A stretch of 64,000 nucleotides of DNA, taken from the NCBI RefSeq assembly GCF_002067135.1, contig NZ_CP020105.1, forward strand, positions 3,968,001 to 4,032,000, read 5' to 3'. The translations under genes were made by a program, and so were the position numbers. Source of the stretch: Spirosoma rigui. GTDB taxonomy: Bacteria; Bacteroidota; Bacteroidia; Cytophagales; Spirosomataceae. The notes beneath the pieces are model-generated. The model was not told where the DNA came from. It worked only from the letters and a program-made list of their open reading frames with translations, and ran no database searches. Shown here in pieces: positions 25,051-58,120 of this stretch (within the stretch, counting starts at the first letter, position 1; every line of letters starts with the position of its first letter).

Positions 25051-25560
25051 ATGAACATTAATGACAAGATTAAACAGATACTGATTGACAAGAATCTGAC
25101 GCCTTCGTATTTCGCGGATGAAATTGGCGTTCAGCGTTCCAGCATCTCCCACATCTTATCCGGACGCAACCGTCCCAGCTTCGACATTATTCAGAAAATT
25201 ATTCGTCGCTTTCCTGAATTGGGCTACGAATGGATCATGGAAGAAGAACAACAACCCCAACATCAGGCTAATCAATCGAACTACGGTAGTCCAAGAAATT
25301 CTCCTTCGGTTCAGCCAGTCGACCGACGGGAGCAACGATACCCGGTATCTCCATCCGTTTCTTACACCGCTCCATCCATTCACGTCCGCAGTCAGCGTAA
25401 TGAGATTCCCCCAGTAATGCAGTCGGTTAATCCTGCTTCTGTGGATCATCCCGTATTACCCGAGCCAACCGGAGTAGTAGGAAAAGCGGATAAAAAGATT
25501 GATCGAATCCTGATTTTCTTTACTGACGGATCGTTTCAGGAATATGGCCCTACGGCCTAA
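25051..25560 (+). CDS. Xre-family helix-turn-helix regulator
   Basis: 169 residues. Residues 1-65 form a lambda-repressor-like HTH (INDKIKQILIDKNLTPSYFA, DEIGVQRSSISHILSGRNRP, SFDIIQKIIRRFPELGYEWI). This is followed by a Gln/Pro/Ser-rich disordered linker (about 68-145) and a short conserved-looking C-terminus (KKIDRILIFFTDGSFQEYGP). The pattern is that of a Cytophagales housekeeping-type Xre protein rather than a phage repressor. Targets are unknown; inverted repeats immediately upstream suggest autoregulation. Confidence 0.82.
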   Translation: MNINDKIKQILIDKNLTPSYFADEIGVQRSSISHILSGRNRPSFDIIQKIIRRFPELGYEWIMEEEQQPQHQANQSNYGSPRNSPSVQPVDRREQRYPVSPSVSYTAPSIHVRSQRNEIPPVMQSVNPASVDHPVLPEPTGVVGKADKKIDRILIFFTDGSFQEYGPTA

Positions 25561-25729
25561 TCTTACTTACTTTCGGCTATGAATTTTTCCTGTAGGGCTG
25601 TTTTTCCTGTATCAGCCTGTTAAACAATTACTTTGGCTATAGTAGCCAAAATAGGCCATAATTACCCAGAAAGGCCACATTTTACCCCTGACTAGCTAAC
25701 TCCTTGTGAAGCAATACATTAGTGTTCCA

Positions 25730-25761
25730 CGTGGATAAGTTGTTCATAACGTTGTGGGTAA
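25730..25761 (+). other. Cluster of three DnaA-box-like nonamers
   Basis: cgtggataa (25730), tgttcataa (25741) and tgtgggtaa (25753) differ from the DnaA box TGTGGATAA at one, two and one positions. All have the same orientation, at 11- and 12-base spacing. Chance is possible in AT-rich DNA. Confidence 0.25.
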
Positions 25762-26359: not shown

Positions 26360-26377
26360 TATATAGTTAACTATATA
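26360..26377. repeat. 18-bp perfect palindrome beside the IS left end
   Basis: tatatagttaactatata, 23 bases outside the left IS terminus. Purpose unknown. Confidence 0.5.
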
Positions 26378-26400: not shown

Positions 26401-26411
26401 CGTATGCTACT
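26401..26411 (+). repeat. IS3 left terminal inverted repeat
   Basis: cgtatgctact, exact reverse complement of the right terminus at 27773-27783. Confidence 0.8.
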
Positions 26412-26420
26412 AGAATAGAT

Positions 26421-27329
26421 TTACAAAGGGGAACAAAACTGATTATCAGCCTGATATTGCACATTTCCGAACCGCACTTTTTTATACGGGTACCATTTTA
26501 AGGACTGATGGCCTCGGCTCTGGTGAGCTTGATTCGGCGTTTTATAGCCTAAAGACGCATGCGGTCGTACCGAATTGTAAGCACAAATGGCTTGCTCAAC
26601 AGCCGTTTCGGCCACGACGAAAGTAGGGAAGCCCCGAAGATGAAAGTCTTCCTTTAAGGTTCGAAAAACCCGCTCCGCTAACGCATTTTCATTTGGGTCG
26701 CCTGACTCGGTCATACTAATAGTAATCTTCGCTTGACGCAGCCGATCCACATAAGCGCCCGAGCAGTACTGAACGCCCCGATCAGAGTGGTGAACAAGCG
26801 CTTGATCAGGTCGCGTACGCGTTTTTAAAGCCATCTCCAGGGCGGCTACTGGCCCTTTAGCTTCCAGGGTTTTATGGAAGGACCAACCGATGATTTTTCG
26901 GGAGTAAGCATCCATCAGCACCGATAAATAGGCGAAACCAATCCCGACTCGAATGTAACTCAAATCGCTTACCCAGAGCTGACCAACTCCATCTGGTTTT
27001 AGCTCCTTGACCTGGTTAGGGTACTTTTCCAAATCATGATCAGAGTCGGTTGTCTTGATTCTAGATCGCTTCTTTGTCAAAAGCAAGTCATTGGACTTTA
27101 GTAAGTTATGCAGCTTATCTCGTCCTAACTTGATTTGATGAGCTACCAAAAAGTCCTGCATCAATTCATATAATTTAGTTGTTCCTAAGCCCGCAACCTG
27201 TTTCCGCAATCGTTTGACTTCAGCCAGCACAATCGCAGCCTGAAAGCCTTGTTTCTCCTGACGCCGGGTAGCCGCATACCAGGCTTGTCGTGTTAACCCA
27301 AACACCCCACACAACTGCTCCATCCCCAC
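26421..27329 (-). CDS. IS3-family transposase OrfB (DDE integrase domain)
   Basis: 302 residues counted from a GTG, but normally made as an OrfAB fusion. The N-terminal HTH_21-like part (QLCGVFGLTRQAWYAATRRQ, VKRLRKQVAGLGTTKLYELM) precedes the retroviral-integrase-type core. The catalytic triad lies in LWVSDLSYIRV (Asp), VHHSDRGVQYCS (Asp) and ENALAERVFRTLKEDF (Glu), followed by YNSVRPHASLGYKTP. The frame is open upstream across the end of orfA, as needed for the frameshift. All catalytic residues are present, so it looks functional. Confidence 0.93.
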   Translation of the reverse strand: MGMEQLCGVFGLTRQAWYAATRRQEKQGFQAAIVLAEVKRLRKQVAGLGTTKLYELMQDFLVAHQIKLGRDKLHNLLKSNDLLLTKKRSRIKTTDSDHDLEKYPNQVKELKPDGVGQLWVSDLSYIRVGIGFAYLSVLMDAYSRKIIGWSFHKTLEAKGPVAALEMALKTRTRPDQALVHHSDRGVQYCSGAYVDRLRQAKITISMTESGDPNENALAERVFRTLKEDFHLRGFPTFVVAETAVEQAICAYNSVRPHASLGYKTPNQAHQSRGHQSLKWYPYKKVRFGNVQYQADNQFCSPL

Positions 27330-27346
27330 TAAGGGGTAGCGACGAG

Positions 27347-27742
27347 TTAGTTGGTTGACTGTTTGGTGCCAGACTTTTTTAAGATCGGGATCTGAAACTG
27401 CTTTTCAGCAATCTGAATGGCCGTTTCAAAAGCTTCGGCTTTGAGTTTAAGTAATTTATTCTCGTCCTCAGTAGCGGCCAGACGTCGCTCAAGGGCTTTG
27501 ACGTAGGCGTCTTGGTTGTGCTTCTTCATGGCTTTGTAACAGCGATAGGGATATAAATAAGGCGCTAATCGGTGCTTGAAATACCATCGGTTCAACTGAC
27601 GTAATTCGGTCAGTGAGATGTGCAAGTATTGCTGGATGTCGTCCGGCTGAGCGATTTCGGCTCGATAGACTTCGACGACCTTTCGCCTGAAATGAAGCGA
27701 TTTTCTATTTTTCTTATTTCGTTGTAATACGCTAATATACAT
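27347..27742 (-). CDS. IS3-family OrfA (DNA-binding / leucine-zipper protein)
   Basis: 131 residues. The N-terminal half is a basic helix-turn-helix region (SLHFRRKVVEVYRAEIAQPD, DIQQYLHISLTELRQLNRWY). The C-terminal part is a coiled coil (ALERRLAATEDENKLLKLKA) as in other IS3 OrfA proteins. The slippery heptamer lies near its 3' end, eight codons before the stop. Confidence 0.85.
   Translation of the reverse strand: MYISVLQRNKKNRKSLHFRRKVVEVYRAEIAQPDDIQQYLHISLTELRQLNRWYFKHRLAPYLYPYRCYKAMKKHNQDAYVKALERRLAATEDENKLLKLKAEAFETAIQIAEKQFQIPILKKSGTKQSTN
27374..27380 (-). other. Programmed -1 frameshift site A AAA AAG
   Basis: On the minus strand the orfA codons read TTA AAA AAG, so the heptamer A-AAA-AAG lies exactly in the X-XXY-YYZ phase. 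The orfB frame is -1 relative to orfA and open from here on. Slippage would make the OrfAB transposase. Confidence 0.8.
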
Positions 27743-27772
27743 AAGCTTACCGATTTACTGTACACAGAAACC

Positions 27773-27783
27773 AGTAGCATACG
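27773..27783 (-). repeat. IS3 right terminal inverted repeat
   Basis: agtagcatacg, exact reverse complement of the left terminus; it is followed after two bases by the dif-like site. Confidence 0.8.
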
Positions 27784-27785
27784 GT

Positions 27786-27813
27786 TTGTTGTATAATTTA
27801 TATTATGTTAAGT
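27786..27813 (+). other. Putative chromosomal dif site (XerCD recombination site)
   Basis: A 28-bp sequence aligning without gaps to E. coli dif at 20 of 28 positions. The XerD-binding arm ttatgttaagt matches 10 of 11 positions, the central hexamer ttata-type matches 5 of 6, and the inner part of the XerC arm (gtataa) retains ATAA. The outer XerC arm differs, as is common between phyla. Gene orientation switches to almost entirely minus-strand right of this point, and plus-strand genes predominate on the left, as expected at a terminus. XerC, XerD and FtsK are not encoded here. Confidence 0.72.
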
Positions 27814-27864: not shown

Positions 27865-29310
27865 TTATTTGCTCTCTACGCAGACAACCTTACGCTCCTC
27901 ATACTGCTTGAGGATGTTCTGTAAGTTCGTCAGGTTTTCGTTCAGATCTGCTTCATCCTTTACCGCTTTGGCTTTGGTGAAGTATGGCAGTGCCTGCTTG
28001 AACTTGCCACAAACCTGACCATCTAATTCCTTACCACGCTTGTTGTAATCGGCCATGTCCATACCGTCGACGCCCTTCTTGAGTTCAACTGCTTCATTGA
28101 AGAAGAAAACACCCATGTTGTAGTTGGCATCGTAGTTAGCCGGATCAATAGCCAGGGCCTTGCTGTAGTACTGCTTGGCCATATCCCGCTGTTCAGTTTG
28201 CTTCTGCTTCAGATCAGCAACTTTCTTTTCGTTGTCGGCCATAGCACCGGCATTGGCAGCTGCTTCTTTCGCCTGAGCTTCCAGTTGCGCAACGCTGGCT
28301 TTCGCATCGGCCTGGCGCTTCTGCACGTCAGCCAGCTGACGCTTGGCTTCGGCGTTCTTGGGCTCTTTCTTAACCTTCGCCGTCAGACGGGCAATTTCAC
28401 CCGTGATCGCACTTAGCGCGTCTTTCTCCGCAGCCAATTTCTTGGCCGACGAATTACCCTGCTTGGCATCACCACCCAGTTTGCGGATATCATCCGTCAT
28501 TTTAGATGCACCGTTGTCATACAGGATACCCAGGTTCACCAGATTCTGAACGTTGTTGGGATCTTTTTCAACCAGCTTCTTCATACCGTCGATAGCCTCG
28601 TCCATCCGGTTCGACGCCAGCATGATGTTAATCCGCTCGTTCGACAGGTCTTTGTTTTCCGGCGACATCGCGATCCCCTTCTCGAGAACGGATAATGCTT
28701 TATCTACCTCTTTGTCATTCCGGTAGAGCATCGCCAGCGAGCCGTAGATCGCTGCGTCTTTACCACCGTTTGCTACGTATCTTTCCAATTGGGTTTTAGC
28801 CGTAGCATTGTCCTGAATCTGCTGCGCACCAATAGCCGTGTACAACGGAGCGAGTGTATCCTGCGGCAGCACTTCTCCGGCAACCGTCATGATTTTCACC
28901 GCGTCAGCGTAGTTTTTCGCCTGGAATTTGGCGACCCCCTGCTGCATGATGGCATTATACATATCCCGGCTCTTCAGCGCTTCGGTAGCTTCTTTAGCCA
29001 GTTTGCCAGGACCACCCTTTTTATCCTTATCCAGCTCGATCACTTTTTTGTACGCTTCCATAGCGGTGATTCCTGCCGTGGAATCCAACCGGATTGACTG
29101 CAACGCTATGTTCTGGTACGTTTTAGCGCGGTCCATCCAGGTGGATGCTTTTGCCGATGCTTTGGCATCAGCAATATCCTTATCGCTCTTCTCCTTTTCC
29201 TTTTTAAATGCTTCCATAGCAAGCGCGTCACCTCCGGCGGCTGCGGTTTGCTGAGCGCGTACACCTGTTGACAGGCAACACGCGACGAGGAACCCAAAAA
29301 CTAGTTTCAT
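27865..29310 (-). CDS. Secreted TPR-repeat protein
   Basis: 481 residues from the ATG at 29310, which opens a good signal peptide (MKLVFGFLVACCLSTGVRAQ). Several tetratricopeptide repeats follow (AMEAYKKVIELDKDKKGGPG, AVKIMTVAGEVLPQDTLAPL, ALSVLEKGIAMSPENKDLSN, MAKQYYSKALAIDPANYDAN). A long charged coiled-coil insert sits at about 285-365 (LAAEKDALSAITGEIARLTA, KRQLADVQKRQADAKASVAQ). It is probably a periplasmic scaffold protein; no specific function. An alternative in-frame start lies 30 bases upstream. It is the first gene right of the dif-like site and has its own terminator. Confidence 0.82.
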   Translation of the reverse strand: MKLVFGFLVACCLSTGVRAQQTAAAGGDALAMEAFKKEKEKSDKDIADAKASAKASTWMDRAKTYQNIALQSIRLDSTAGITAMEAYKKVIELDKDKKGGPGKLAKEATEALKSRDMYNAIMQQGVAKFQAKNYADAVKIMTVAGEVLPQDTLAPLYTAIGAQQIQDNATAKTQLERYVANGGKDAAIYGSLAMLYRNDKEVDKALSVLEKGIAMSPENKDLSNERINIMLASNRMDEAIDGMKKLVEKDPNNVQNLVNLGILYDNGASKMTDDIRKLGGDAKQGNSSAKKLAAEKDALSAITGEIARLTAKVKKEPKNAEAKRQLADVQKRQADAKASVAQLEAQAKEAAANAGAMADNEKKVADLKQKQTEQRDMAKQYYSKALAIDPANYDANYNMGVFFFNEAVELKKGVDGMDMADYNKRGKELDGQVCGKFKQALPYFTKAKAVKDEADLNENLTNLQNILKQYEERKVVCVESK

Positions 29311-29457
29311 GTGCAAATTGGGGTTGTGTTTTGTTTTCAAAAAACGAAATTACGGAATCAATCCGTATAAGCATGGTACTCCATCAATTGTTTGAGCCAC
29401 CCGCCCGACAGACACTGTCAAAACGGATGGCTCAGGAACGGGCAACTGAACGACGTC

Positions 29458-31989
29458 TTATTCGGTAACGTCGGCTGGTTCAACAGGCTCCACGGCTTCA
29501 GCCGCTGCAACCTCCTCCCCTTCTTCCCGCTTGATTTTAGTAACCGATGAAATGGCATCGCCCTCCCGCAGGTTGATCAGTCGAACCCCCTGGGTATTCC
29601 GGCCAATGACGCTGATCTCATCGACCGGGGTACGAATCGCAATACCGGATTTGTTGATGATCATCAGATCGTCATTATCCGCTACGTCCAGAATCGCCAC
29701 CAGCCGACCAACCTTCTCGGTGACTTTCAGGGTACCTACCCCTTTCGCCCCACGGTTGGTGATCCGGTAGCCATCAATGTCCGAACGCTTGCCGTAGCCC
29801 TTTTCGGAGACAACCAGCAGCTGCGCATCGGTCGACGCGATACAAACCATGCCAATTACGTGGTCGGTCGGGTCGTCCTCGTCGAGCGAGATACCCCGTA
29901 CCCCGGCCGCCGTACGGCCCATAGGTCTGGTGCGGGTTTCGTGGAAACGAACCGCTTTACCAGCGCTCGACGCGATGACGATTTCGTTATCGCCGTTGGT
30001 CATGCACACGCCGATCAACTGGTCGTCCTCATCAATCGTGATCGCAATGATCCCGTTCTGGCGCGGCCGGGAATAGGCCTCCAGCATTGTCTTCTTGATC
30101 GTTCCTTTACGGGTACACATCACCAGGTAATTATTGTTGATGTAGTCCTCGTTCTTCAGATCGGTGACGTTAATAACGGCGCGTACTTTATCGTCCGACT
30201 CAATGTTGATAAAGTTAGCCAGCGGACGGCCTTTCGAGGTCCGGGAACCTTCGGGCAACTCGTAAACGGGGAGCCAGTACAACCGCCCTTTCTGGGTAAA
30301 CGCCAGCAGGGTGTTGTGCATGGTTGCCGTAAAGAGATGTTCCGTAAAGTCCTCTTCTTTGGTACCGGCTGCTTTTGCGCCAACCCCACCGCGGCTTTGC
30401 GAACGGTACTCGGTCGTTGGCGTACGTTTGATGTAGCCTTCGTGCGAGATGGTAATAACCATGTCCTCATCGGCAATCAGCGACAGGTCACTGATATTGC
30501 CGTCGCCGAGCGGGTTGATCTGCGTCCGGCGCGGATCACCGTAGCGGGTACGGATATCCATCAGCTCGTCTTTGATCACCTGCCGCTTGCGTTCTTCACT
30601 GGCCAGAATCTCTTTCAGGTCGGCAATTTCCCGCATCAACTCGTCGTACTCTGCCTGTAGCTTGTCCCGCTCCAGACCCGTGAGCCGCTGCAGACGCATT
30701 TCCAGAATCGCTTTTGCCTGGATGTCGCTCAGTGAGAACCGCTCCATCAGGCCCGTCCGGGCTACTTCCGGATCGCGCGACGACCGGATCAGTTCAATGA
30801 CGGCGTCAATGTTGTCAAGCGCAATCAGCAAGCCTTCCAGAATGTGGGCCCGCTTCTCCGCTTCGCGCAGTTCGTATTCCGTCCGGCGGGTGATGACGTC
30901 AAAGCGGTGCTCGACGTAGTACTTCATCATGTCCTTCAGGTTCAACAGCATGGGCCGCCCTTTGACCAGGGCTACGTTGTTGATACTGAACGACGACTGC
31001 AGGGCCGTATGCTTGTAAAGGTTATTGAGGACGACGTTGGGAATGGCATCTTTCCGCAGATCGTACACGACCCGCAACCCATCCCGGTCCGACTCATCGC
31101 GGAAAGCCGTAATACCTTCAATTTTCTTTTCGTTGATCAGCTCGGCCGTTTTCTCCAGCATCACGGCCTTGTTGACCATGTAGGGGACATCGGTAACGAT
31201 GATCTGGGTTTTTCCCTTGTGTTCCTCGATGGTCGCGTTGGCCCGCATAACAACCCGGCCACGGCCGGTCTTGAACGCGGACTTCACCCCTTCCATCCCA
31301 TAGATGGTCGCTCCCGTTGGAAAATCAGGGGCTTTCACATGGTTCATCAGCTCCTCTACCGTGATGTCGTAATTATCGAGGTAAGCCATGATACCGTCGA
31401 CAATCTCGGTCAGGTTATGGGGAGCCATGTTGGTAGCCATCCCCACGGCAATACCCGACGAACCATTCAGCAGCAGGTTCGGCAGTTTGGCCGGCATCAC
31501 GCTCGGTTCTTCGAGCGAGTCATCAAAGTTGGGCTGGAAGTCGACCGTCTCTTTGTAAATATCAGACAGGATCTCGTCGGCAATCCGTTTCAGGCGAGCC
31601 TCGGTATACCGCATAGCCGCGGGGGAGTCTCCATCGATGGAGCCGAAGTTCCCCTGCCCATCAACGAGCGGGTACCGCAGCGACCAGTCCTGGGCCATCC
31701 GGACCATGGTGTCATACACGGATGAGTCACCGTGCGGGTGATACTTACCGAGTACCTCCCCAACGATACGGGCTGACTTCTTATGTGGTTTGTTGTAGTT
31801 GACCCCCAGTTCGGCCATTCCAAACAGAACCCGGCGGTGAACCGGTTTCAGACCATCCCGTACGTCGGGCAGGGCGCGGGAGATGATAACCGACATCGAA
31901 TAATCGATGTAGGCACCGCGCATTTCGTCCTCAATGTTAATTGGAATAATGTTACTGGGCGATTGGAGGTCGGGAGTTTCTTCCGCCAT
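29458..31989 (-). CDS. gyrA: DNA gyrase subunit A
   Basis: 843-residue catalytic subunit that breaks and rejoins DNA for negative supercoiling. The active-site tyrosine is Tyr128 in [13 protein letters not shown]. The quinolone-resistance region [17 protein letters not shown] has Ser89 and Asp93 at the positions of E. coli Ser83 and Asp87, so it is of the sensitive type. The C-terminal beta-pinwheel carries a GyrA-box variant QSRGGVG near residue 535, which distinguishes it from the second A-subunit gene in this window. It ends in an acidic tail ([20 protein letters not shown]). gyrB is not adjacent. Confidence 0.96.
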
Positions 31990-57878: not shown

Positions 57879-57909
57879 ATTGATTGCCAATATATCGCTC
57901 GTTTCAATG

Positions 57910-57996
57910 CAGAGAGGAAGAGATTCGAACTCTCGATACGGTTGCCCGCATACACACTTTCCAGGCGTGCTCCTTCAACCACTCGGACACCTCTCT
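57910..57996 (-). tRNA. tRNA-Ser (anticodon GGA)
   Basis: On the minus strand a 7-bp acceptor (agagagg / cctctct), D-arm with ccgagtggttgaagg, anticodon loop ctGGAaa in an 11-nt-class stem (cacgcct GGA aagtgtg), a long variable arm typical of class II tRNAs, T-arm gagttcgaatctc, and G at the discriminator position. 87 nt. CCA is not encoded. Confidence 0.93.
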
Positions 57997-58002
57997 AAAA
58001 AC

Positions 58003-58030
58003 GAAGTCAGCAACTTAAAGTGCTGACTTC
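58003..58030 (-). promoter_or_regulatory. Hairpin in the spacer between tRNA genes
   Basis: Perfect 10-bp stem gaagtcagca / tgctgacttc with an 8-nt loop fills the 37-base spacer between the two serine tRNAs. Likely a processing signal for a joint precursor, or a terminator of the first. Confidence 0.45.
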
Positions 58031-58033
58031 CGG

Positions 58034-58120
58034 CAGAGAGCGAGGGATTCGAACCCCCGGTACCCTTGCGAGTACTTCTGATTTCGAATCAGACCCATTC
58101 GACCACTCTGGCAGCTCTCT
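58034..58120 (-). tRNA. tRNA-Ser (anticodon CGA)
   Basis: On the minus strand acceptor agagagc / gctctct, D-arm gccagagtggtcgaatggg, anticodon arm ctgatt CGA aatcag, long variable arm (agtactcgcaagggtacc), T-arm ggggttcgaatccc, discriminator G. 87 nt, class II. Upstream on the minus strand, catctttg differs from the -7 consensus at one position. Confidence 0.93.

Follow-up and report, generated by a model that had tools for sequence, protein, structure and literature searches.

Genes and features of the locus

The window, i.e. the whole stretch of DNA that was analysed, covers 64,000 nucleotides of the chromosome of Spirosoma rigui, positions 3,968,001–4,032,000; the genome is a single contig with 5,828,404 bases (5.83 Mb). 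Its plus strand carries at 27786–27813 the 28-mer TTGTTGTATAATTTATATTATGTTAAGT, which is laid out as a dif site, with an XerC arm on the left (27786–27796), a central hexamer (27797–27802) and an XerD arm on the right (27803–27813); on the chromosome, dif lies at 3,995,786. On the XerC side lie, in order toward dif, a gene for an HTH_3 protein pointing toward dif (Pfam; 25051–25560, plus strand), a conserved element that spans 25696–25761, and two transposase frames of an insertion sequence (IS) (26421–27742, minus strand). On the XerD side, a gene for a TPR protein (Pfam; 27865–29340, minus strand), which is convergent with the HTH gene, is followed by a gene of the DNA gyrase subunit A type (29458–31989, minus strand; Pfam DNA_topoisoIV and DNA_gyraseA_C, six stretches).

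The genes on either side of dif are conserved in the genus. The HTH gene was found upstream of dif in 32 of the 33 genus loci, the remaining one being cut by a contig end, and the TPR gene also in 32 of 33, with the near edge of the match 49–84 bp from dif. Both are present in 31 of the 33 loci and are convergent in 31/31, so that a promoter operator for the flanking genes is unlikely to lie between them. The gyrase A type gene adjoins the TPR gene in relatives, and other genera of the family likewise show the order dif, TPR gene, gyrase A type gene (27865–31989 in the window for the two genes).

The dif site

Counted by eye against the E. coli dif sequence, the 28-mer agrees at 20 of 28 positions, namely at 5 of the 11 XerC-arm bases, 5 of the 6 central ones and 10 of the 11 in the XerD arm; this recount agrees with the figures of the preliminary description (20/28 overall, 10/11 in the XerD arm, 5/6 in the hexamer). 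The whole 28-mer is unique in the 5,828,404-base genome at up to 3 mismatches (reversed control, 0), and the same search yielded no better dif match elsewhere. With the 19-base dif core at up to 2 mismatches, one further match was obtained in the genome, at 594,135 with 2 mismatches; since the reversed control also yielded one, this match is at chance level. Within the window, the core matched with 0 mismatches, and at up to 3 mismatches there were 3 matches against 0.05 expected, the other two having 3 mismatches.

Conservation of the site in relatives, on which the earlier claim also depended, was borne out. Of the 36 genus genomes, the present one included, 34 have the core with no more than 1 mismatch; at this threshold it was not found in G021 (82% complete) and G033 (71% complete). 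For G008, the core was taken from a separate search of Cytophagales, while the other genus rows come from the core scan. At up to 2 mismatches, 76 of 79 genomes of relatives contained the core; the strict count is preferred because the reversed control also matches at the looser threshold.

The genome encodes the proteins that would act on such a site. A search with the XerD model gave XerD at 338.5 bits, over the cut-off, and a second Xer recombinase at 262.8 bits, under that cut-off and taken as XerC; an FtsK_gamma domain is also encoded (94.5 bits). The site thus resembles known chromosomal dif sites in its 28-bp architecture of two 11-bp arms and a 6-bp centre, in its E. coli-like XerD arm, in its single copy close to the GC-skew shift and opposite the origin, and in the accompanying XerD, XerC-like and FtsK-gamma genes. 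It differs from them in its divergent XerC arm and in a linked half-parS element, which goes unmentioned for known sites in the accessible parts of the sources. Sites of this kind were predicted in 19 of 19 Bacteroidetes by Kono et al., in whose text, as far as it was accessible, Spirosoma is not named (PMC3025954).

Terminus and origin of replication

GC skew was sampled in 40 spread stretches of 12 kb. It was positive in 16 of the 20 samples between 1.17 and 3.93 Mb, the other 4 being negative, whereas the 20 samples of the other half, which runs from 4.08 Mb past zero to 1.02 Mb, were all negative. A contiguous local scan of 264 kb around the window placed the maximum of the cumulative skew at 3,986,678, i.e. 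9.1 kb to the left of dif, so the skew switch falls near the site, as the preliminary description had anticipated. At the other switch, a local scan of 200 kb gave the minimum at 1,125,099.

The presumptive oriC (1,100,026–1,116,677) was located by skew, DnaA boxes, parS and rRNA, because in this genus dnaA lies away from the origin. As an origin marker dnaA was discarded: its distance from dif is 24.8% of the chromosome here and 24.8–41.1% in the 12 genomes for which it was computed. At least three DnaA-box-like 9-mers (TGTGGATAA-like, at most 1 mismatch) per 120 bp occurred, in the genome sample, only at 1,100,026–1,103,750. Beside these clusters lies a 16S gene (1,096,502–1,098,008), and two parS-like sites follow at 1,106,688 and 1,116,664, which are 9,976 bp apart. 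The distance of about 21 kb between the skew minimum and the DnaA-box cluster is a point against this placement. A partial, isolated 16S rRNA match was also noted at 5,530,048–5,530,395 on the minus strand.

At 1 mismatch, the reversed control equals or exceeds the origin parS pattern in number of matches (12 against 8 in this genome); single matches therefore mean nothing, and reliance is placed on the recurring pair about 10 kb apart. This pair recurs in 9 of the 10 genus genomes shown in full, the present one included, G019 having one site; the count leaves out G013 (partial rows), G003, G014, G015 and G017. The shortest arc from dif to the first origin parS site amounts to 49.6% of the chromosome, and in 9 of the 11 genomes computed, this one included, it lies between 46.9 and 50.0% (G035 was computed on its main contig only). 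The exceptions are G018 (21.1%) and G023 (40.4%), in which dif is not antipodal to the pair; the two arms may be strongly unequal there, or the assembly or a rearrangement may be responsible. In G052 and G057, parS was found opposite dif, as expected.

The KOPS motif guides FtsK in E. coli. The sequence GGGNAGGG occurred at 104 sites oriented toward dif and at 51 oriented away (one of the latter counted twice, in overlapping stretches). As it ranks only 21st among 42 arrangements of the same letters, no KOPS signal beyond the G skew is present, and this candidate was rejected.

Uniqueness, the skew switch, an origin half a chromosome away, the Xer and FtsK genes and conservation together make the 28-mer very probably a working dif, and the earlier placement of dif at the terminus is strongly supported by the skew, the uniqueness and the conservation. 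That a pdif-type copy, non-functional or belonging to a mobile element, is being seen here while the true dif lies elsewhere is barely credible: mobile DNA does adjoin the 28-mer, but there is no further match in the genome at up to 3 mismatches, and the 28-mer is kept in the same gene neighbourhood across the genus and sits at the skew switch. The 28 bases are accordingly read, with high confidence and from sequence evidence, as the functional chromosomal dif of this genome, to which a conserved element is linked on the XerC side. They would very probably be the single site, opposite the origin, at which joined sister chromosomes are separated. In the proposed mechanism, FtsK would align chromosome dimers that reach the septum, with XerC bound to the left arm of the site and XerD to the right; acting at the central hexamer, which lies half a chromosome away from oriC, the two recombinases would convert the dimer back into monomers. 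As a dif, the site is unremarkable.

Gene orientation and base composition

With a simple codon model of our own, 28 of the 32 genes called to the right of dif in the window lie on the minus strand and 11 of the 18 called to its left on the plus strand. These counts are near those of the preliminary description, which had taken the polarity switch as an independent mark of the terminus. The local switch stands, but it is not evidence for a terminus, because among the genes sampled outside the window co-orientation with the fork holds for 106 of 209 (right replichore) and 61 of 190 (left replichore), i.e. for 167 of 399 genome-wide. Already at 4.072–4.132 Mb, 26 of 39 called genes lie on the plus strand. 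In the samples from 4.03–5.83 Mb and 0–1.09 Mb, the inferred fork meets 129 of the 190 called genes head-on, which is an unusual bias.

The AT-rich flank that had been described was confirmed, the region from 20 to 28 kb having 41–52% GC against 51–62% elsewhere in the window. Among the chromosomal samples, one stretch of 12 kb (L094; 437,131–449,130) has 39.9% GC against 50–57% in the others, and its called genes are nearly all on the minus strand; it is possibly an island. Two tRNA-Ser genes (gga and cga) lie side by side on the minus strand at 57909–58120 of the window.

A conserved parS-like element on the XerC side of dif

Alignment of the flanks revealed a conserved block upstream of the XerC arm, an element that the preliminary description had missed. 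In the window, the block comprises 43 bp (25696–25738, plus strand), with 41/43 identities to the query form, and ends in the parS-like core TGTTCCACGTGGATAA (25723–25738, plus strand). The left half of this core is a canonical half-parS, and the right half deviates from parS at two positions. All 33 genus loci examined have the first 14 bases of the core, TGTTCCACGTGGAT, upstream of dif and on its strand, with no more than 1 mismatch and, in 29 of the loci, exactly; the count left out L006, L019, L023 and L026, which have no dif core at up to 1 mismatch. As G008 also has the core at its dif, all 34 genus genomes with dif carry a linked core.

The distance between element and dif is often fixed. 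The 43-bp block lies 33–34 bp from dif in 20 of 32 genus relatives and 2047 bp from it in the window; measured from its start, the core lies 49–50 bp from dif in 21 of 34 cases (20 of the 33 loci plus G008) and 85–2063 bp from it in the other 13 genus loci, the window having the largest value, 2063. Since the fixed spacing is lost in 13 of 34, close contact of the element with dif is not essential. From the core to the HTH gene, the distance varies from 67 to 1447 bp, so that dif is the closer partner of the element. The dif-linked copy is the sole match of TGTTCCACGTGGAWMA at up to 1 mismatch in 15 of 23 genus genomes; of the rest, 6 have others elsewhere and 2 (G003 and G021) have none.

Beyond the genus, five further genera of the family include genomes with the element near dif, and in a family sample outside the genus it was present in 4 of 12 genomes and not in 8. 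An exact core lies near dif in G036 (at −976), G037 (−484) and G040 (−2248), and a variant, CGTTTCACGTGGAT, at −50 in G042. At the level of the order, the core was found in none of 20 loci with dif; these loci and six of the family loci span only about 1.5 kb either side of dif. The compact arrangement was observed in 13 of 390 Cytophagales genomes, all Spirosomataceae (8 of 17 drawn from the genus, 4 of 4 from g8 and 1 of 4 from g50). A search for the exact 19-base sequence TTASTGTTCCACGTGGATA in bacteria and archaea, with one genome per species, returned 17 stretches, from Spirosoma (13), Fibrisoma (2), Rudanella (1) and Rossellomorea (1). In 15 of the 16 stretches from Spirosomataceae, dif is in the same stretch, and the sixteenth ends just past the motif; the Rossellomorea stretch contains no dif core, the best match having 6 mismatches.

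The element gave no sign of a special DNA fold (z 0.7 to 1.0). A structured RNA was considered and rejected, as there was no fold signal and the only two Rfam matches, to lncRNA families, were far below the gathering score. The element is probably a protein-binding site linked to dif on the XerC side, with a half-parS as its core and, in many cases, DnaA-box-like repeats behind it. No such element appears among the matches listed for literature on parS or ParB sites or DnaA-box clusters at dif or the terminus and on Bacteroidetes dif, as far as the sources were accessible, subscription papers being mostly outside this scope. What the present analysis adds is this conserved parS-like element linked to dif.

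The insertion sequence between the element and dif

In the window, the element is parted from dif by the insertion sequence and about 0.65 kb of other DNA; other DNA also occupies this interval in eight other genus loci that were compared. The two transposase frames (26421–27742, minus strand) encode 302 and 131 amino acids. The longer one has an rve integrase core (Pfam rve and rve_3), and the shorter one has no Pfam match; the name IS3-type is our own reading. The genome contains one copy.

Insertion sequences that seek out dif are known from Acinetobacter (PMC10132070), and bases adjacent to dif shared among nine loci had suggested that the present one behaves like ISAjo2. As in the ISAjo2-type elements of the IS1202 family, the insertion lies on the XerC side of dif, with 43 bases between the end of its transposase frame and the XerC arm; 12 other genus loci also have other DNA between the conserved element and dif, and the locus L060, which shares 50 bases (94%) beside dif with the window, contains by eye a degraded transposase-like piece that is possibly a relic. 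The dif hunters of IS1202 type, as described in the accessible part of that source, have a single transposase of 441–457 amino acids and lie 5 bp from the XerC site; the transposase organisation differs here, with two frames (131 and 302 amino acids) and an integrase core, and no insertion at a constant distance from dif was found in relatives. Moreover, the copy is single, tblastn detected no homologous transposase upstream of dif in 39 other loci, and the other loci whose dif-proximal bases are similar showed no inverted end. The idea was largely dropped for want of a transposase or inverted end in the others, and a dif-hunting habit is very improbable.

Some further features of this interval were noted. 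A 13-base sequence (CGTATGCTACT[A/G]G) occurs in inverted copies at 26401–26413 and 27771–27783, which bracket the insertion sequence, and its dif-proximal copy is shared by some relatives in which no IS was detected. A perfect 18-base palindrome, TATATAGTTAACTATATA, lies at 26360–26377, between the conserved block and the IS. In L064, the sequence immediately upstream of dif looks, by eye, as if it could code for the terminal part of an integrase-type transposase, so that a different IS may have inserted between the element and dif at that locus.

Candidate ligands of the element

The sequence TGTTCCACGTGGA equals the first 13 bases of the palindromic Cytophagales parS TGTTCCACGTGGAACA, which is present in G051, G052, G054, G058 and G060. 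The dif-linked copy is not a full parS by definition: against the 16-bp palindrome TGTTNCACGTGNAACA, positions 25723–25738 have 2 mismatches, both in the right half, and this half (GTGGAT) differs from parS while being conserved equally, nearly invariant in the genus. In sharing 14 of the 16 bases of TGTTCCACGTGGAACA it is like the parS of ParABS systems as covered in the accessible parts of the sources, and it is unlike them in not being palindromic and in lying at the terminus and not near the origin (PMC7333895, PMC7383237), where this genome has its own pair of sites about 10 kb apart. It does contain the heptamer of a half-parS (GTTCCAC or GTTTCAC). Both heptamers are bound by ParB of P. 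aeruginosa (PMC7022226, PMC10419367), and the change from GTTCCAC to GTTTCAC in the g8 form is the variation seen there. The two cases share a half-site that is not part of a full palindrome; in P. aeruginosa, according to the parts of these sources that were accessible, half-sites number hundreds genome-wide, whereas here there is one, tied to dif across several genera and with conserved flanks.

A ParB gene is present (181.8 bits), beside which a ParA-like frame was recognised by eye. Two base-reading positions (173 and 201) distinguish ParB from Noc. In the encoded protein, with numbering aligned by eye, these positions are Arg and Gly, as in ParB, but there is a Lys at 184, which is the Noc residue, and a Tyr at 179. 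The bare half-parS octamer is a weak sign, because its scattered occurrences near dif in other families are chance: GTTYCACG was found in 14 of 38 loci outside the genus, several of them scattered (L164 repeats L030). Six of the 32 genus loci (L035, L039, L048, L054, L057 and L060) also have a second octamer, located some 2,125–2,155 bases downstream of dif, where it probably falls inside the gyrase A gene.

The parS-like core overlaps the first of three direct repeats, spaced 11–12 bp and resembling the DnaA box TGTGGATAA (25730–25761, plus strand): CGTGGATAA at 25730–25738, TGTTCATAA at 25741–25749 and TGTGGGTAA at 25753–25761. Two of these have 1 mismatch to TGTGGATAA and TGTTCATAA has 2. 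The element might instead be a DnaA-binding site, for titration or regulation of DnaA as at datA or DARS, its likeness to half-parS being incidental. We consider this rather unlikely, the evidence being divided as follows. Of the 33 genus loci, 11 have a cluster of three such repeats within 1 mismatch, and 260 kb of these loci contained no other triplet of this kind; the variants TGTTGATAA and TGTGGATTA are adjacent in the presumptive oriC, and similar repeats are kept in g8 loci. The boxes are seldom exact, though, and 9 of the 33 loci lack a box within 1 mismatch, while the parS-like core is kept in all 33. Several box-like repeats outside oriC are also what characterises datA, DARS and other DnaA-box clusters; judged from the accessible part of that source, the present ones differ in being imperfect, not universal in the genus and linked to dif (PMC4585315).

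Another protein, e.g. the neighbouring HTH protein or an unknown organiser of the terminus, is a distinctly unlikely ligand. It would suit the nearly invariant right half, which differs from parS, and the constant presence of the HTH gene nearby in the genus; against it stand the spacing to dif, which is fixed in 21 of 34, as against anything between 67 and 1447 bp to the HTH gene, and the g8 change, which follows a known half-parS variation. Binding by ParB has its own difficulty in that the candidate site is without the parS right half and that this deviation is itself conserved. On balance, the sequence and residue evidence would favour ParB, and as the likeliest of these readings, though at somewhat less than an even chance, it is tentatively suggested that ParB is the ligand of the dif-linked element and would form a small complex near dif. 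The further step, that Spirosoma and related genera have at dif a second ParB loading site of a terminus type beside the pair at the origin, is unlikely.

Implications for chromosome biology in Spirosoma

In a genus whose dnaA lies away from the origin, dif allows the chromosome to be oriented. A half-centromere sequence that is kept near dif in 34 genus genomes is unexpected under models in which ParB acts at the origin. If such a second ParB loading site is real, one segregation protein would mark both the first and the last chromosome loci to separate and, possibly together with DnaA, would couple partition, SMC loading or initiation control to the resolution of chromosome dimers.
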